Assembly (NCBI GenBank): GCA_016793095.1
Contig: JAEUJQ010000092.1
Coordinates: 62,001-126,000, forward strand
DNA from: Myxococcaceae bacterium
Lineage (GTDB): Bacteria > Myxococcota > Myxococcia > Myxococcales > Myxococcaceae
DNA: 64,000 nucleotides
Direction: 5' to 3'
The translations under genes and the position numbers were made by a program. The notes under the pieces are model-generated. The model did not search any database and had not been told where the DNA came from. It worked only from the letters and a program-made list of their open reading frames with translations. Positions 32,630-44,101 of the stretch are shown here, piece by piece (the first letter of the stretch is position 1; the number at the start of each line of letters is the position of its first letter).

Positions 32630-34069
32630 GTGACGAAGAAGAAGCAGGCGCCGAAGTCGCTCTACATGATGACGCTGGGGTGCCCGAAGAACCGGGTGGA
32701 CTCCGAGGTGATGCTCGGCACCCTCAACCAGCGCGGTTACCAGCTCGTCGACGACGCGAAGGACGCCGAGGTCATCGTCGTCAACACCTGCGCCTTCCTG
32801 AAGGCCGCCGAGCAGGAGTCGGTGGACAACATCCTCGAGCTGGCCGAGTACAAGCAGACCGGCAAGTGCAACACGCTGGTGGTCACCGGCTGCCTCGTGC
32901 AGCGCCACGGCGAGGGCCTGTCGAAAGATCTGCCCGAGGTCGATCACTTCCTCGGCACCAGCGCCTACGTGCAGATCGGCGATCTGCTGGCGGCCGAGGC
33001 GAGCCCGCGCGAGCTGATCCCCGACCCCGAGTACATCCACACCGCGGCGGTGCCGAAGGTGAACTCGATGCCCGGGTACACCGCGTACCTGAAGATCTCC
33101 GAGGGCTGCGACAACAAGTGCGCGTTCTGCATCATCCCGAAGCTGCGCGGGCTGCAGCGCTCTCGCCCCATCGCCGACATCGTCAAGGAGGCGAAGCAGC
33201 TCGCCGACGCCGGCGTGCAGGAGCTCAACCTCGTCGCGCAGGATCTCACCGCCTACGGCCACGACCTGCCCGAGAAGCCGAAGCTGCACGACCTGCTGAA
33301 GGAGCTGGTGAAGGTGGACGTGCGGTGGATCCGCCTGCACTACGCCTACCCGCGCGTCTTCACCGACGAGCTGATCGAGCTGATGGCGACTGAGAAGAAG
33401 ATCGCGAAGTACCTCGACATGCCGCTGCAGCACGCCTCGGACAAGCTGCTCAGGTCGATGAAGCGCGGCCGTGACTCCGCGTTCCTCGAGCAGCTCATCG
33501 CGAAGCTGCGCGCGCGCGTGCCGGGCCTCACCTTCCGCACCTCGCTCATCGTCGGCCTGCCAGGCGAGACCGAGCAGGACTTCGAGCTCTTGAAGGACTT
33601 CGTGAAGAAGATGCGCTTCGAGCGGCTCGGCGTGTTCCAGTACTCGGACGAAGAGGGCACGGCGGCCTTCGAGATGGCCGGCAAGGTGCCGCAGAAGACC
33701 ATCGAGCGGCGCTGGCGCGAGGTGATGGCCGTGCAGAAGCGCATCAGCCGCGAGCAGAACAAGAAGCTCATCGGCCAGCGGCTCGAGGTGCTGGTCGAGG
33801 GCGTGAGCCCCGAGTCCGAGCACCTGCTGGTGGGCCGCCATGAAGGCCAGGCCCCCGACATCGACGGGCAGGTCTTCATCAACGACGGCCTCGCCTACCC
33901 CGGCGAGCTGGTGACGGTCGAGGTCACCGAGGCGCACGACTACGATCTCGTGGCGCGGGTCGTCGAACGACCCAGGCAGAGGAAACACGCAGCGCGGGCG
34001 ACCGTGCCGGCGGCCGTTCGCGGTGGCGAGAAGATCATCACCCCGCCCACCTGGCTCGCCCCCCGGTGA
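32630..34069 (+). CDS. rimO: Ribosomal protein S12 methylthiotransferase
   Basis: 479 residues from GTG 32630 with GGAG five bases before. Radical-SAM enzyme that methylthiolates the conserved Asp of ribosomal protein uS12. N-terminal MTTase domain: [42 protein letters not shown] supply the three Cys for the auxiliary cluster. Radical-SAM motif [17 protein letters not shown] (CxxxCxxC). C-terminal TRAM domain ([10 protein letters not shown] to [13 protein letters not shown]). The CP-K-N-R-V-D-S-E signature and TRAM length favour RimO over MiaB. A Pro/Arg tail of about 30 residues extends past the usual end. Confidence 0.95.
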
Positions 34070-34113: not shown

Positions 34114-34141
34114 TTGTCCAGTGACGACGCGGTCGTATACT
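34114..34141 (+). promoter_or_regulatory. Promoter of the OMP-FecR-kinase operon
   Basis: TTGTCC (34114-34119), 16-bp spacer, TATACT (34136-34141), the best sigma70-like promoter in the window. Only six bases separate the -10 from GTG 34148, so the transcript should start at the start codon and lack a ribosome site. Confidence 0.68.
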
Positions 34142-34147
34142 CCACCC

Positions 34148-35686
34148 GTGCGTCTGTCGGCCGGGGTGGGGTTGATCAGCGTCGTGCTTCAACTCGCGAG
34201 CGCAACCGCGTTCGCTGAGGAGCCGTCCGTTTCAGCCAGCGCAGCTCCGATCACGCGCAAACGCCCGGAGGAGCTGTTCGAGGTGCGCCTGCGCTACGGC
34301 GTGGCGTACCGCACGGGCAGCCAGCAGGACACCACCGGCCCCGGCCTCGGCTACACGGGCCTCACCCCGAATGATCCCAGCGTCCAGGCCTGGGTCTGGC
34401 CCTTGTTCGACGTGCTGGGCGTCACCGCCTCGTTCGGGCGCGAGGGCTTCGCCCTGTTCGATCGCGCCACCAACGAGCGGGTCACCGGCGGCGGGCTTCT
34501 GCGCGCGCAGGCCGGGGTGACCGCGCGGCTCCGGCTCGGGCCCGTGCGGCTCGAGCCCGTCGTCGGCTACGCCTTCAACCAGGTCGCCGAGTTCGGTGAC
34601 TCCGCCACGCCCCGGTTCCGTGCCGGCACCCGACACGGCGTGCTGCTGGCCGCGCGGGGGCTCGTCGATCTCGGGCCCGTCACCCTCGAAGGCCGCTTCG
34701 AGTACCCGCTGGGCGTCGCGGCGAGGAATGGCGACGGAGCCCGCGCGACCTCGACGGGCTGGCTCGCGGGCGGCGGCGTTCGGGTCGCGCTCGTGCGAAC
34801 GGGAACCGCGCTGTGGGGGCTGATGCTCGAGGGCTCCTACTCCACCGATCGGTTGAACAGCGCGATCCAGACGTCGCAGAACCTCATCCGCGGCTCGCTG
34901 GCGCTCGACCTGCAGTGGAAGGAAGCAGAGAAGCTCGCGACGCTCGGCGCCCTGAAGGTGAGCGTCGTGCTCGACGAAGACGGGAGCCCGGCGTCGAAGG
35001 CCGAGGTGCTGGTCGGTGAACGCGCGGTGGTGATCGATGGCGCGGGCGTTGGCCGACTCGACGAGCTCGCGGCCGGCAGCGTCAGCGTGCGCGCGTCGCT
35101 CGATGGGTACGAGCGCGCCGAGGGGACCGCCGACGTCACCGCGGGTGTCGAGACGCCCGTGGTGCTGCGCCTCAAGAAGCAGCTGCCGAAGGTGGGGACG
35201 CTCGTCGTCACCGTCATCGACAAGGCCACGAAGGCGGCCCTCGCGGGCGCCACCGTCACGGTCGGCGGCAGGGCGCTGACCACCGACGCGAAGGGCCTCG
35301 TCACCTTCACCGACCTGCAGCCAGGCGCCGTCAACGTCGAGCTGCAGGCGCCGGGCTTCACGCCGAAGAGCGAGGCGGCCACGATCCTGCCCGGCCTCAC
35401 GGCGAGCGTCTCGTCCGAGCTGGTGAACGCGAAGCAGCGGGACCCGGCGACGGTGAGCGGCTTCGTCCGCAGCGCGCGGGGCGGGGCGCCGGTGACCGCC
35501 AACCTGTCGATCCCCGAAGCGAACATCAAGGCGAAGGCCGACGCGAAGGGAGCCTTCGTCTTCCGCCTCAACGGCGGCTCCTACACCGTCACGATCTCCG
35601 CGAAGGGCTTCGCCACCCAGACGAAGCAGGTCACCGTGAAGGACGGCGACCAGGCCATCTTCAACGTCGATCTGCAGCCGAAGTGA
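34148..35686 (+). CDS. Outer-membrane-like protein with three carboxypeptidase-regulatory-like domains
   Basis: 512 residues. Signal peptide VRLSAGVGLISVVLQLASATAFA. Residues about 40-260 are alternating amphipathic strands with Gly/aromatic patterning (LRYGVAYRTGSQQDTTG, RLRLGPVRLEPVVGYAF, LEGRFEYPLG), like a small outer-membrane barrel. From about 275 three PEGA/carboxypeptidase-regulatory-like beta-sandwich units follow (starting GALKVSVVLDEDGSP, GTLVVTVIDKATKAAL, ATVSGFVRSARGG). Start GTG 34148 sits where transcription should begin. First gene of a three-gene operon with a FecR lipoprotein and a membrane kinase; assembly into one envelope complex is inferred. Confidence 0.72.
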   Translation: MRLSAGVGLISVVLQLASATAFAEEPSVSASAAPITRKRPEELFEVRLRYGVAYRTGSQQDTTGPGLGYTGLTPNDPSVQAWVWPLFDVLGVTASFGREGFALFDRATNERVTGGGLLRAQAGVTARLRLGPVRLEPVVGYAFNQVAEFGDSATPRFRAGTRHGVLLAARGLVDLGPVTLEGRFEYPLGVAARNGDGARATSTGWLAGGGVRVALVRTGTALWGLMLEGSYSTDRLNSAIQTSQNLIRGSLALDLQWKEAEKLATLGALKVSVVLDEDGSPASKAEVLVGERAVVIDGAGVGRLDELAAGSVSVRASLDGYERAEGTADVTAGVETPVVLRLKKQLPKVGTLVVTVIDKATKAALAGATVTVGGRALTTDAKGLVTFTDLQPGAVNVELQAPGFTPKSEAATILPGLTASVSSELVNAKQRDPATVSGFVRSARGGAPVTANLSIPEANIKAKADAKGAFVFRLNGGSYTVTISAKGFATQTKQVTVKDGDQAIFNVDLQPK

Positions 35687-35702
35687 GCGGCCAACCACGA
35701 CG

Positions 35703-37649
35703 ATGACGCGTTCGTTCACCCTGCTGTTCGCCTTCGCCGGGCTGTGGGCCTGCTCCGGCGGCGATGCCGACAAGCCGGCAGCCCGGCCGGCGGGAGCGGT
35801 TGACGCGGGCGCTCCCCTCACCGCGAAGCCCGCCGCCACGCTCGACGCGATGACCGGCTCGGTGACGGTGACGCGCAAGGGCGCCACCGGTCCGGCCGTG
35901 AAGGGGCCGCTCTTCGACGGCGACGTGGTGGAGACGGGCGACGCGAGCAGCGCGGTGCTGAAGTTCAGCGACGGGCGCTCGCTCGAGCTCGGCGCGAACG
36001 GACGCATCGAGCTTGGCGCCGAGGGCGACGGTCTGGTGCTCGAGATCGGCCAGGGCACGGTCGTCTCCCGCGTCGTCGAGGGCGGGGGCCCCGGCGTGCA
36101 GCTCACGCTCGACACCCCGTACGGGCTGGTGCGTGTCGGCGCGGGTGGAGTCTCGCTGAGCGTGCGCGGCGACGAGGCCTCGGTGGACGTGCTGGCCGGC
36201 GACGTGACGCTGGTGAGCCGGGAGGGCAGCTCGCTGACCCTCGAAGCCGGGGCTGGCGGCACGCTCTCGAAGCAGGGCGCCACGCGCCGGGTGACGCTCG
36301 AGCCGCTCACGGTGGTGCTCTCGGGCAAGGGCGGGCGGGCCGAGGTGAAGAAGAAGGGCGAGAAGACCTTCACCGTCGTGAATGCGAAGAAGCCCCCGGT
36401 CCCGCTCGCTGCGGGCGACACGGTGCGCGTGTCGGGCGGCGCGGTGACGCTGAGCCCCGCGCAGAGCGACGCGAGGGTGACCCTGGGCGCGGGCACCGAG
36501 GTGGGCGTGGGCGAGAGCGTGCGCAACAGCGGCGCCGAGGAGCTCGCCCTCGAGGTCAAGAAGGGCTCGCTGCAGCTCGGGTTGCCGTTCGGGAAGAAGC
36601 GCACCGTGCGGCCCGGTGACGGCGTGGCGCTGGTGGCCGAACAGGGCGGCGTCCTCTCGGTCGCGCGGGTGAAGAACGGGCTGGAGCTCTCCTCCACCGT
36701 CGGCGACGTGGTGGTGATGACCGAGACGGGCGAACCGGTCACGGTGAAGGGCGGGCGATCGGCGGTGATCACGAAGGCCGGCGTCGAGCAGAAGGGCCCC
36801 GAGCGGGAGGCGCTCGTGCTGCCGACGCGGCAGGGGCTCAGGCTGCTGCACCCGGGCGCCGAGCGGGTCGCGTTGACCTGGCCGGGAGCCGAGGACGCGG
36901 CCTGGCGCGTTCAGCTCGGCACCGACGCCGCGCTCAGCAAGCCGCTCATCGACGGCGTCGTCCACCAGCCCTTCTTCAACACCCTCGCGCCGGCGCGCGG
37001 CGCGCTCTTCTGGAGGGTGAGCCAGGGAGACACCGAGGTCGCGAAGGGCTCGGTCGTGTGCGGGCCCGAGAAGCAGAGCGATGAGCTCGGCGGCATCATG
37101 AACGAGGTCCCCGCGGGCCCCGAGAAGACCGTCATCTACTTCCAGGACAAGCCGCCAGCGCTCACGTTCACCTGGAAGAAGCCGGACAAGCCCGTGTCCG
37201 AGTACCTGCTGAAGGTGTACCGGGCCGGCAACCTCGCCGCGCCGATCGCCGAGCGCCGCACGCCGGCCACCCAGGCGGAGCTGCCGCTCGGCTCGATCTC
37301 CGAGGGCCAGTACCAGTGGGACGTCACCTGGCTCGACGCGGCGGGCACCCCGATCGGCACCGCTGGCAAGATGAACCAGCTCGAGCTGCAGTACGACAAC
37401 GCCGTGCGCGCGCTGTTGATCAAGGCCCCGAGGAACGGCGACCCGCCGGCCGCGAAGGTGGCGGTCTCGGGCATCGCGCCGATGGGGGTGAAGGTGAGCG
37501 CGAACGGCCAGCTGCTGACGCTCGACGCGAAGGCGCGCTTCTCGGGCCAGGTGACTCCGCTCTCGAGGGGTCGGGTGGCCTTCCGCTCCGTCTTCGAGGG
37601 CTCCGAGACGTACGTCGTGCGGTGGCTCGGCAAGGGTGGGAGCCGATGA
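35703..37649 (+). CDS. FecR-domain lipoprotein
   Basis: 648 residues. Lipoprotein signal MTRSFTLLFAFAGLWAC with Cys17. Two FecR-like beta-roll modules are visible: about 50-175 (GSVTVTRKGA, FDGDVVETGDASSAVLKFSD, GRSLELGANGRIEL) and a second around 185-350 (GDTVRVSGGAVTLSP, VGDVVVMTETGEPV). The C-terminal third has Ig/fibronectin-like strands (ALTFTWKKPDKPVSEYLLKV, YQWDVTWLDAAG, VAVSGIAPMGVKVSANG). FecR domains usually transmit periplasmic signals. It lies 16 bp after the upstream gene and its stop overlaps the kinase start (ATGA). Confidence 0.83.
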   Translation: MTRSFTLLFAFAGLWACSGGDADKPAARPAGAVDAGAPLTAKPAATLDAMTGSVTVTRKGATGPAVKGPLFDGDVVETGDASSAVLKFSDGRSLELGANGRIELGAEGDGLVLEIGQGTVVSRVVEGGGPGVQLTLDTPYGLVRVGAGGVSLSVRGDEASVDVLAGDVTLVSREGSSLTLEAGAGGTLSKQGATRRVTLEPLTVVLSGKGGRAEVKKKGEKTFTVVNAKKPPVPLAAGDTVRVSGGAVTLSPAQSDARVTLGAGTEVGVGESVRNSGAEELALEVKKGSLQLGLPFGKKRTVRPGDGVALVAEQGGVLSVARVKNGLELSSTVGDVVVMTETGEPVTVKGGRSAVITKAGVEQKGPEREALVLPTRQGLRLLHPGAERVALTWPGAEDAAWRVQLGTDAALSKPLIDGVVHQPFFNTLAPARGALFWRVSQGDTEVAKGSVVCGPEKQSDELGGIMNEVPAGPEKTVIYFQDKPPALTFTWKKPDKPVSEYLLKVYRAGNLAAPIAERRTPATQAELPLGSISEGQYQWDVTWLDAAGTPIGTAGKMNQLELQYDNAVRALLIKAPRNGDPPAAKVAVSGIAPMGVKVSANGQLLTLDAKARFSGQVTPLSRGRVAFRSVFEGSETYVVRWLGKGGSR

Positions 37650-39385
37650 GCTCGCAGAGCCGGCCGCCCCCGGGGCCGGTGCCCATTCAGCGCTACGGGA
37701 AGTACTACCTCGTCAGCAAGCTCGCCGAGGGCGGCATGGCCGAGATCTTCCTCGCCAAGCAGGTCGGCGTGGAGGGCTTCGAGAAGAACGTCGTCGTCAA
37801 GCGCATGCTGGCGCACCTCTCGACGGTCGGTGACTTCGTCTCCATGTTCCTCGACGAAGCCAGGCTCGCCTCGCGGTTGGCGCACCCGAACGTCGTGCAG
37901 GTCCTCGACCTCGGCTTCGAGGAGGGCTGCTACTTCATCGCGATGGAGTACCTGGCCGGCGAGGACTTCTCGACCGTCATCCGTTCGGCCGCGAAGCAGC
38001 GCGCCTGGGTGCCGCTCAACATCGCCCTCAAGGTGCTCGCCGACGCGGCGACCGGTCTGCACTACGCCCACGAGTTCACTGACGCGAAGGGCCAGCCGCT
38101 CAACGTCGTGCACCGTGACGTGTCGCCGTCGAACATCCTCGTCACCTACTCCGGCCAGGTGAAGGTGCTCGACTTCGGCATCGCCAAGGCCGAGTCGCGG
38201 GTCACCAACACCACCGCGGGCGTGGTGAAGGGCAAGTACCAGTACATGGCGCCCGAGCAGGCGCAGTCGCTGCCGATCGATCGCCGCGCCGACGTCTACT
38301 CGCTGGGCGTCTGCATGTACGAGGCGCTCTGCAACGCGCGGCCCTTCGCGAGAGACACCGACCTCGCGATCCTGAACGCGGTGCTGAAGAACGAATACCG
38401 CCCGGCGCGGCAGCTCCGCCCGGATCTGCCGGTCGAGCTCGAGCAGATCCTCGTGAAGGCGCTCGCGCGGGAGCCCGCCGATCGGTTCCAGTCGGCGGGC
38501 GAGTTCGCCGCGGCCCTCGAGAACTACCTCCGCGCGTCCACGTCGGTGACGAGCGGCACGGCCATCTCGCAGTACATGGCGAGCTTCTTCGGCCCCGAGC
38601 GGGTGGCGAGCCGCACGCGCATCGACTCGCTCGAGGACCTGAAGGCCCGGGGCGTGCTGGTGCCAGAGCTCGAGAAGTCTCCCTCCAACCCATCGGGCCC
38701 CTCGCTCGTGGTGCCCGGGCCGACGAGCGTCTCGCAGAACATCACCGTGACGGTGGAGGAGTCGACGCGGTCCATCGGCGCGCCGCGGTCCGTCACGGGC
38801 GAGACGGCCTTGCCGGGTCGGCCGCTCGGGACGATCGCCGCCGTCGTCGGAGCGCTGCTGATCGGCGCCGTGATCACGTTCATCGCGCTGAAGAGCCAGC
38901 AGCCACCGGTCAGCGACGTTCCCGTGTCGAACGTGCCGGTGCCCAACGCGCCCGTGCCCAACGTGCCGGTGCCGCCGCCGGAGCCGGTGGTGCCCGCTGT
39001 CGTGGTGGACGCGGGCGGGGTGGCTGAGCCGCTCGACGCCGGCGCGCCCGAGCCGGTGGACGCCGGGGCGCCCGACAAGGTGAAGCCCGCCGGGGCGAAG
39101 CCGGTGGTGTTGAGCACGCCCATCATCTCGCAGGTGATCCGCAAGAACGCGGGACCGGTGGTGAAGTGCTTCCAGGAGCACAAGAGCGAGCTGCCTGCCG
39201 CGAGCGGCAAGGTCGACGTCACCATCACCATCGAGCGGTCCGGGCGCGTGCGTGACGCGTCGAGCGCGATGTCGGCGACGCCCGTGGGCCAGTGCCTCGA
39301 GGGCCGCCTCAAGCAGATCAGGTTCCCGGCGCATGTGGACGAGTCGGTCACCGTCACCCTGCCCCTCAACTACAAGGTGCAGTAG
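37646..39385 (+). CDS. Membrane Ser/Thr kinase with C-terminal AgmX/PglI (myxo_SS_tail) domain
   Basis: 579 residues; ATG overlaps the previous stop by 4 nt. Kinase about 12-290: KLAEGGMAEIFLA loop, VVVKRML Lys, VVHRDVSPSNILV, VLDFGIAKAE, GKYQYMAPEQ, all intact, so active kinase expected. A Ser/Thr-rich linker, one membrane span (about 393-416), then a Pro/Val/Asn repeat (VPVSNVPVPNAPVPNVPVP) and a DAG-rich stretch. The last 90 residues (VIRKNAGPVVKCFQEHKSEL, GKVDVTITIERSGRVRDAS, VGQCLEGRLKQIRFP) match the TonB-C-like AgmX/PglI tail with its Cys pair. The tail should be periplasmic, possibly contacting the two co-encoded envelope proteins. Confidence 0.88.
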   Translation: MSSQSRPPPGPVPIQRYGKYYLVSKLAEGGMAEIFLAKQVGVEGFEKNVVVKRMLAHLSTVGDFVSMFLDEARLASRLAHPNVVQVLDLGFEEGCYFIAMEYLAGEDFSTVIRSAAKQRAWVPLNIALKVLADAATGLHYAHEFTDAKGQPLNVVHRDVSPSNILVTYSGQVKVLDFGIAKAESRVTNTTAGVVKGKYQYMAPEQAQSLPIDRRADVYSLGVCMYEALCNARPFARDTDLAILNAVLKNEYRPARQLRPDLPVELEQILVKALAREPADRFQSAGEFAAALENYLRASTSVTSGTAISQYMASFFGPERVASRTRIDSLEDLKARGVLVPELEKSPSNPSGPSLVVPGPTSVSQNITVTVEESTRSIGAPRSVTGETALPGRPLGTIAAVVGALLIGAVITFIALKSQQPPVSDVPVSNVPVPNAPVPNVPVPPPEPVVPAVVVDAGGVAEPLDAGAPEPVDAGAPDKVKPAGAKPVVLSTPIISQVIRKNAGPVVKCFQEHKSELPAASGKVDVTITIERSGRVRDASSAMSATPVGQCLEGRLKQIRFPAHVDESVTVTLPLNYKVQ

Positions 39386-39429: not shown

Positions 39430-40500
39430 CTACTCGGACGCTTCGTAGAGCTCGCCGTGAAACCCGATGGCGCCCGGCGACAGCGAGAAGTGCCCCTCGG
39501 GCATCAGGAAGAGCACACGCTTGCCGCCCGGCCCGACCCCCGCCCCGACGATGAAGTACTTCCGATCGAACTTCGCGCCGTCGATGGTGAGCAGGTCGTG
39601 CTCGAGCGCCCAGGTGCCCTCGTCGGTCTGGCCGGCGAAGGTGGTGCTCCCCAGGTTGGTGTTCGCGCTCGAGGTCTCGTACGCGGCCGCGTGGTTGCCG
39701 TCGAAGCGCCAGCGCACGCTGTACGCGACGGCGCTGAACGTGGTGGAGCCGGTGATCACATTCACGTACTGCGCGTGAGAGCCTGAGCCGGAGGTCCACG
39801 AGCCGACCAGCTCTGCCTCGTCCACGAGCGGCCGGCCGACCGGGCTGCCCTCGATCCCCTTCATCAACTCCTCCACCGCCGCCTGGGTGACGTCGAAGGA
39901 GCCCTTCGCCACCATCATCGCGCCCACAGAGTCGTCGAAGTACTCCTGCAGGAGGACGAAGGGCTCGAGCCGATCGTCCGCCTCGACGAGGTAGAGGCTC
40001 ACGAGCGACGGGTGCTGGGCGTTGGGCGCCTTGAGGGTCGCCGAGGTGAAGTGTGCGCGCGCGCCGTTCTGAACGAAGCGGCGCAGCGGCAGCACCTTCG
40101 CCGGCGCGTCGGGCCAGTCCCTGACGATGGCCTCGTTCCAGAGGTCGGTCAGCTTGCGGTGGGGGTCGTCCAGGCCGGGGACGGCGCCAAGGCGGATGAC
40201 GTCCAGGGTGTGCCTCGCCGAGCCGTCCACCTTCTCGAAGCGCCAACGCCCTTCGGAGACCGGCGTGAACGCGGCTGGAATCGAGAGGGCGAACCCGCCG
40301 GCCACGCCCGGTGACCCGGTGGAGGACGGGGACGCGCCGCCGAGGCCCATCGTGTCCGTCGTGCCGGCGATCACTCCGAGGCCGACGAGCGCGACGGCCC
40401 CGGCGCCACACACCGCGCAGAGCCCTCCGACGCCGAGGAGCACCCACAGCAGGGTGCGCCGGGGCGGCACCGCTGGACCACCGGGCGGAGCGGGCGTCAC
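39430..40500 (-). CDS. Single-span membrane protein, function unknown
   Basis: 356 residues from GTG 40500, overlapping the stop of the XRE-cupin gene by 4 nt (GTGA), so translationally coupled to it. N-terminal Pro-rich stretch, one membrane helix (LLWVLLGVGGLCAVCGAGAV, extended to about residue 45), then an extracytoplasmic region with a lipocalin-like final part: GTWALEHDLLTIDGAKFDR and VLFLMPEGHFSLSPGA alternate strands as in proteins with a substrate pocket. No catalytic motif recognised. Convergent with the kinase gene. Confidence 0.66.
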   Translation of the reverse strand: MTPAPPGGPAVPPRRTLLWVLLGVGGLCAVCGAGAVALVGLGVIAGTTDTMGLGGASPSSTGSPGVAGGFALSIPAAFTPVSEGRWRFEKVDGSARHTLDVIRLGAVPGLDDPHRKLTDLWNEAIVRDWPDAPAKVLPLRRFVQNGARAHFTSATLKAPNAQHPSLVSLYLVEADDRLEPFVLLQEYFDDSVGAMMVAKGSFDVTQAAVEELMKGIEGSPVGRPLVDEAELVGSWTSGSGSHAQYVNVITGSTTFSAVAYSVRWRFDGNHAAAYETSSANTNLGSTTFAGQTDEGTWALEHDLLTIDGAKFDRKYFIVGAGVGPGGKRVLFLMPEGHFSLSPGAIGFHGELYEASE

Positions 40501-41114
40501 CCCACCTGCTCCGCGTAGGTCATCACGAGGTACAGCCGCGTCTCGCTGGTGCCGGTGTTGCGGTACGTGTGCGCCTTGTCGGCCTCGAAGAGGATCGCGT
40601 CACCGGCCCCGAGCGAGTACGTGTCGCCGCCCACCACCAGCTCGAGCTGGCCCTTCGACACCACGAGGTTCTCGACGGTGCCCGGCGCGTGCGCCTCGGC
40701 CGACTCCAGGCCCTTCGGCGCGAGCACCAGCTCGTAGAACTCGACCCGCCGCGGCTCGTCGTAGGGGAACAGCGCGCGCGACGAGAAGCTGCCGTCGTGC
40801 GAGAGCAGGCGCTTGGCGTCCTTCTCGCGCAGCACCTTCACCGGCGACTGCTGGGTGGTGCTGATGAGCGCCGAGAACGGCACGTCGACGGCGCGCGCGA
40901 TCTTCCAGAGCACGTTGATGGTGGGCGCCGACTGGCCCAGCTCGACCTGACCGAGCATGGCGCGTGAGACGCCCGACGCCTGGGCGAGCTTCTCGAGCGA
41001 CAGGCCGCGCTCGGTGCGCAGACGGCGGAGGTTCCGGCCCACGACCGGGGCGAGATCGGCGCTCGCTTCCTTCGGGGCGACTTCAGCGGGCTTCTTCGAC
41101 CTCTTCGCAGCCAT
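40497..41114 (-). CDS. XRE-family transcriptional regulator with C-terminal cupin sensor
   Basis: 205 residues from ATG 41112-41114, with AGGAG eight bases upstream. A basic Lys/Ala N-tail leads to an XRE helix-turn-helix (about 25-80: VGRNLRRLRTERGLSLEKLA, GVSRAMLGQVELGQSAPTI) and a cupin_2 barrel (about 120-200: VEFYELVLAPKG, APGTVENLVVSKGQLELVVG, GAGDAILFEADKAHTYRN). Such regulators bind a small effector in the cupin. It is just downstream of aceB-aceA on the same strand but beyond a strong terminator, so it may have its own promoter. Control of the glyoxylate genes is inferred from position only. Confidence 0.88.
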   Translation of the reverse strand: MAAKRSKKPAEVAPKEASADLAPVVGRNLRRLRTERGLSLEKLAQASGVSRAMLGQVELGQSAPTINVLWKIARAVDVPFSALISTTQQSPVKVLREKDAKRLLSHDGSFSSRALFPYDEPRRVEFYELVLAPKGLESAEAHAPGTVENLVVSKGQLELVVGGDTYSLGAGDAILFEADKAHTYRNTGTSETRLYLVMTYAEQVG

Positions 41115-41183
41115 GCAGCAGCTCCTCGCGCGGCGTCCGTTGCAGCGGAGGGATGACGCGATCGCCGCGAGGATGCAACCACC

Positions 41184-41224
41184 AAAAAGAACGCGCCGTG
41201 GCCCACGAAGGAGCCACGACGCGT
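41184..41224 (-). terminator. Rho-independent terminator after aceA
   Basis: Minus strand: stem of 12 bp (arms at 41213-41224 and 41191-41202, ACGCGTCGTGGC / GCCACGGCGCGT, one G-U pair), 10-nt loop, followed by TCTTTTTGG (complement of 41184-41190). It is the only textbook intrinsic terminator I found in the window. Confidence 0.88.
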
Positions 41225-41264
41225 GCGCGCGCACGAGGGGGGAGGGATCAGGCGCGCGGCAAGC

Positions 41265-42542
<1,278 letters not shown>

Positions 42543-42589
42543 GGTGGGCTCCGTGGGTGAGGGTGGCGGTGTGAGAGACGAGAGCGGCG

Positions 42590-44101
<1,512 letters not shown>

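Follow-up and report, generated by a model that had tools for sequence, protein, structure and literature searches.

How information about the cell surface might reach a protein kinase in the cytoplasm of myxobacteria is the question raised by three genes within a 64,000-nucleotide stretch of DNA from a Myxococcaceae bacterium (hereafter the window). Their products are a candidate outer-membrane protein, a lipoprotein with FecR domains and a kinase that ends in a TonB-like tail. The sequence-only reading of this locus held that no system of such form had been described. The trio is almost certainly the ortholog of Myxococcus xanthus masA-masB-masK (MXAN_1927-1929), which has already been published (PMC3546991). 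The operon itself is thus known; the predicted MasA barrel, the tandem FecR domains of MasB and the TonB-like tail of MasK are new.

Organization of the operon

Table 1. Features of the mas operon in the window and of its predicted products
Feature	Position	Strand	Description	Basis
masA ortholog (gene A)	34148-35686	+	512 aa, GTG start	ORF call
masB ortholog (gene B)	35703-37649	+	648 aa, lipoprotein	ORF call
masK ortholog (gene C)	37646-39385	+	579 aa	ORF call
Promoter	34114-34141	+	-35 TTGTCC, 16 nt, -10 TATACT; 6 nt 5' of GTG 34148	
rimO	32630-34069	+	upstream neighbour of the mas trio in the window's genus only	
MasA parts			signal peptide; predicted 10-stranded barrel, residues about 41-258; three transthyretin-like/carboxypeptidase-regulatory sandwiches, residues 265-512	AlphaFold, Pfam
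MasB parts			lipidated Cys17; FecR domains, residues about 42-200 and 202-372; then three Ig/Fn3-like domains	Pfam, AlphaFold, HHalign
MasK parts			kinase, residues 23-282; TM, 397-415; Pro-rich linker of about 70 aa; TonB-like tail with Cys pair, 492-575	Pfam, NCBIfam, TM prediction

The three genes are carried by the same strand, masA and masB being separated by 16 bp while the ends of masB and masK overlap by ATGA. The promoter of masA is sigma-70-like and is a single match where 0.1 are expected in shuffled sequences. Three tight genes under one shared promoter had been proposed earlier, and both the coordinates and the single promoter match agree with this. A longer masA reading frame opens at 34121. 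Four congeneric loci (L035, L036, L037 and L039) and a locus of another genus (L040) share the TATACT box and its spacing of 6-7 nt from the start codon, which supports 34148 as the masA start. The masA mRNA is probably leaderless. Elsewhere in the window, on the - strand (40497-44101), a gene for an XRE-cupin regulator adjoins those for isocitrate lyase and malate synthase of the glyoxylate bypass.

Orthology with masABK and relocation of the operon

In a maximum-likelihood tree of MasB, the window protein falls inside the mgl-linked clade of 35 rows with support 100/100, and the paralogous trios and other orders fall outside it. An mgl-linked Myxococcus copy (L138) encodes a MasB of 656 aa with 15-VAGCDDD, in agreement with M. 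xanthus MasB both in length (656 residues) and in lipobox (15-VAGCD / 18-CDDD; PMC3546991). In locus L054, recR starts 37 bases past the masK stop, the same spacing as that published for M. xanthus, where the recR end lies 37 bp past the masK stop (PMC3546991). Like M. xanthus masABK, the window trio consists of three adjacent, co-directional genes in the order A-B-K with abutting or overlapping ends, a lipobox and a kinase; its orthology is indicated by the tree and by the vacated site described below. It differs in its position behind rimO instead of between mglBA and recR, and in the residue at +2 of the MasB lipid anchor, which is Ser, not Asp.

Outside the window's genus, in most family members, the trio is divergent beside mglB (Roadblock) and mglA (Arf-like GTPase), with recR convergent downstream. 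In the window's genus it is found behind rimO and not beside mglBA. The genome to which the window belongs still has recR and mglBA together (L136), without mas genes between them, which shows that the operon was relocated rather than newly acquired. The mas operon has therefore moved, in this genus, from its ancestral mglBA-recR place to the one behind rimO. The vacated site contains a 132-aa secreted-looking ORF between recR and mglB (L136:6992-7390), for which no Pfam family was found. In G011 and G026 an S9 peptidase occupies the homologous mglBA-recR site, and the whole operon is absent from this site in a few genomes (L209, L210, L211).

MasABK of M. xanthus has been described as a complex in the membrane with effects on type IV pili and on development, and masK was identified as an mglA suppressor. 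Two-hybrid assays revealed pairwise contacts among MasA, MasB and MasK, a contact between MasK and MglA, and a PilA contact. Deletion of masABK impairs S-motility, pilA expression and development, and is rescued only by masABK together with pilA (PMC3546991). Since rescue requires both, the link to the pilus may be indirect. The signals that reach MglA were called unclear in the same work (PMC3546991).

MasA, a predicted outer-membrane barrel

The AlphaFold model of MasA, built with 36 aligned sequences, has a mean pLDDT of 90.7 and contains ten strands of 16-20 residues each. The barrel aligns with OpcA (Z 22.4, 2.0 Å over 195 residues) and with OmpT/Pla (Z about 18). MasA shares its fold with these 10-stranded barrels at an identity of about 12% or less, but adds C-terminal sandwiches, and the likeness does not imply protease activity. 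Pfam recognizes CarboxypepD_reg/PEGA in three stretches of residues 272-511 (E 3e-30), and the last sandwich resembles the transthyretin-like domain of carboxypeptidase D (Z 14.1). The strand number being even, both ends of the barrel would be periplasmic. These models agree with the earlier description of a barrel-like protein with three regulatory beta-sandwiches, and MasA is predicted to lie in the outer membrane.

As modelled, the barrel contradicts the published two-helix inner-membrane topology of MasA. In the published model, MasA joins an inner-membrane lipoprotein, MasB, and a membrane kinase, MasK, in an inner-membrane complex that senses pilin. The arguments were TMPred, one active PhoA fusion (another MasA fusion was inactive), the PilA two-hybrid contact and the CDDD lipobox, taken to anchor MasB in the inner membrane (PMC3546991). 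However, the claimed helices fall, in the window's MasA, on residues 78-97 and 198-216, where the high-confidence barrel has strands, and the only hydrophobic stretch found in MasA is its signal peptide. The active PhoA fusion is also explained by an exported barrel. As for MasB, the lipid-anchor Cys is conserved among orthologs while the +2 residue varies, being Ser in the window, Asp in Myxococcus, and Gly, Pro, Glu or others elsewhere. CDDD is thus not conserved and the argument for inner-membrane anchoring does not carry over to the orthologs. Taken together, the published arrangement appears improbable.

MasB, a tandem-FecR lipoprotein

MasB is all beta in its AlphaFold model (mean pLDDT 89.3). 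A Pfam match to FecR (PF04773, residues 74-168, E 2e-6) and a structural alignment of residues 71-197 with PupR, in the FecR half of its signalling domain (Z 16.6, 2.1 Å over 126 residues), are in line with the FecR-domain lipoprotein recognized at the outset. HHalign identifies residues 202-372 as a second FecR copy (P 97.6, E 1.8e-11). The alignment with PupR spans residues 111-238 of the latter, which is the FecR half only; the other half has no Pfam match. Neither an anti-sigma Pfam match nor a TM helix was found in MasB, and an STN-binding domain was not detected by Pfam or by the alignment with the PupR structure.

The sequence-only reading had likened the trio to cell-surface signalling of the FecR/PupR type, where FecR relays the signal of a TonB-dependent receptor; the kinase would take the place of the sigma factor as output. 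The true FecR fold of MasB, shared with PupR, and the TonB-like tail of MasK speak in its favour, but only the FecR domain of MasB fits the analogy and the other required parts are missing. MasA has ten strands, and no STN or plug domain was found in it (Pfam, E<=1). An anti-sigma domain is absent from MasB, and the neighbours tested include no sigma factor gene. Inspection of the MasA alignment by eye for a TonB box revealed an N-terminal segment, about VSAxAPT, that recurs outside Myxococcus but not inside. FecR domains are also found in envelope proteins without sigma links. The relay was rejected and seems highly unlikely.

MasK, a kinase with a TonB-like tail

From its sequence, MasK would be a membrane-bound protein kinase, with a kinase domain (Pkinase, E 1e-33) and a single TM helix between this domain and the tail. 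All of 31 MasK sequences keep the catalytic K, E, HRD, DFG and APE without change, and the view of an intact kinase that spans the membrane once is upheld by these complete motifs. Likewise, the domain content assigned at first to the three proteins (sandwiches in A, FecR in B, kinase and myxo_SS_tail in C) agrees with Pfam and NCBIfam. Less can be said for the proposal that the output is a Ser/Thr kinase: by its motifs the kinase looks active, but the Ser/Thr class is uncertain, because the catalytic-loop Lys is replaced by Ser (HRDxSPSN) in 30 of the 31 sequences and MasK was reported to react with an anti-phosphotyrosine antibody (PMC3546991).

The tail matches the NCBIfam model NF033768 (myxo_SS_tail, AgmX/PglI) with 59 bits against a cut-off of 40, and is predicted, as had been claimed, to be periplasmic. 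The kinase side of the TM helix carries more positive charge in most sequences, and a Cys pair in the tail is invariant, which fits an oxidising compartment. Searched against the PDB, the tail profile retrieves TonB C-terminal domains in ten of ten matches, all weak (best E 0.012). The linker ranges from 33 to 133 residues across sequences.

In NCBIfam the tail resembles those of GltJ and GltG, components of the M. xanthus gliding machine (PMC3169522, PMC5349195). MasK shares with these a cytoplasmic domain, a single TM, a linker and a myxo_SS_tail/TonBC domain; however, where they carry FHA or zinc-ribbon/GYF domains, MasK carries a kinase, and it scores far below the equivalog cut-offs for GltJ (49.5 of 450 bits) and GltG (30.4 of 650 bits). 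A probable GltJ encoded in the same genome (L092:73-1782; zinc-ribbon, GYF, TM, tail) is the closest architectural cousin of MasK.

This homology could mean that MasK is an energised TonB, its tail driven by a motor of the ExbBD/AglRQS type, the more so as GltG binds AglR in two-hybrid assays. Nevertheless, the core of the MasK helix shows neither a conserved His nor any other conserved polar residue, and the operon contains no motor genes. An energised MasK was rejected for want of the polar residue, and we hold it to be very improbable.

The tail also occurs on other proteins. Outside the window, the product of L089:571-1812 (G000 contig C29) combines an ECF sigma factor (Sigma70_r2 and r4), a TM stretch and a myxo_SS_tail (60 bits); its domains make it a sigma factor that is tethered to the membrane and bears a TonB-like tail.

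Conservation of the trio and the role of the tail

Whether the trio is conserved across Myxococcota had been left to be checked by the earlier reading. It is kept phylum-wide. Homologs of masB were detected in 30 of 60 relatives. At loci with enough flanking sequence, MasB is adjoined by MasA in 54 of 55 cases and has a tail-bearing kinase within 5 kb in 52 of 55. This linkage is far beyond chance. Several of the loci studied belong to fragmentary metagenome assemblies, and frame breaks occur in some of them. In f11, a distant family, the kinase gene has the opposite orientation yet is still adjacent. A MasB profile finds matches in 120 of 195 genomes of the phylum (49 of 90 genera), the weak ones among which may be other FecR proteins, and a scan of genome contigs with MasB alone returned three loci only, all in near relatives.

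Several loci contain variants of the trio. L068:6017-11680 (G000 contig C90) carries a paralogous mas-like trio, as do L065, L067, L069, L070 and L071; the kinase of the paralogous trio is extended at its N-terminus by about 150 aa that resemble a degenerate kinase C-lobe. At L074:6120-9839, A and B are present and the kinase is replaced by a repeat-like protein of 580 aa without a Pfam match.

The window's own genome encodes 28 tail-bearing proteins (22 above the cut-off) and more than 150 kinase matches. It has two kinase-tail fusions, both in mas trios. Genome G083, with 12 tails above the cut-off and about 108 kinase matches, has a single fusion, MasK. A rule restricting such fusions to loci with A and B holds in these two genomes and fails in two putatively Cystobacter-like ones (G033 and G016). 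In the latter, masK with its tail lies between mglBA and recR, masA and masB having been lost (L207:5657-7555, L208:7059-8594). This suggests that the tail can have another partner.

These genomes bear on the strongest rival to a receiving role for the tail, namely that it is a positioning anchor by which MasK is held at the pole or at the pilus site through its grip on the envelope, with MasA and MasB as a structural dock. Such an anchor would be compatible with the tailed MasK that persists without MasA and MasB, with the leading-pole maximum of MasK-mCherry in 11 of 15 moving cells (PMC3546991), and with the action of the GltG and GltJ tails in force-bearing complexes (PMC3169522, PMC5349195). 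However, in the window's genome and in G083 each kinase-tail fusion is accompanied by the large MasA/MasB pair, a co-conservation that suggests more than an anchor. We consider a mainly positioning role of the tail unlikely.

A model for MasABK

The best overall explanation, and a likely one, is that MasABK forms an envelope-spanning kinase complex that reaches from the outer to the inner membrane, encoded in the window by a relocated operon. The assignment of the parts, that is, the anatomy of MasA, MasB and MasK, is very likely correct. For the signalling model that follows, the chances appear evenly balanced.

MasA would be an outer-membrane barrel of ten strands with its three beta-sandwiches facing the periplasm, and MasB a periplasmic lipoprotein whose two FecR domains would have a bridging role. 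MasK would be anchored in the inner membrane, and its TonB-like tail would traverse the cell wall and dock on MasA, on MasB or on both. The state of the cell surface would then set the activity or the position of the cytoplasmic kinase. The polarity GTPase MglA being the best known contact of MasK, an action on MglA-controlled motility is likely. We infer the outer-membrane location of MasA, the docking of the tail, the direction of the signal and the substrate.

A bolder version, to which we attach somewhat less than even confidence, assumes that MasK is a receptor-like kinase spanning the whole envelope, which grips MasA via MasB and relays the state of the surface or of the pilus directly to MglA. 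The paralogous trios would then belong to a family of outer-membrane-to-cytoplasm kinases across Myxococcota.

With the reading given here, of MasA as an outer-membrane barrel, MasB as a tandem-FecR protein and MasK as a kinase with a TonB-like tail, a motility operon described in 2013 gains a concrete and testable architecture that differs from the published one. If the model is true, the outer surface of a myxobacterium could be in direct communication with the MglA switch in the cytoplasm, and a phylum-wide family of envelope-spanning kinases would be defined.
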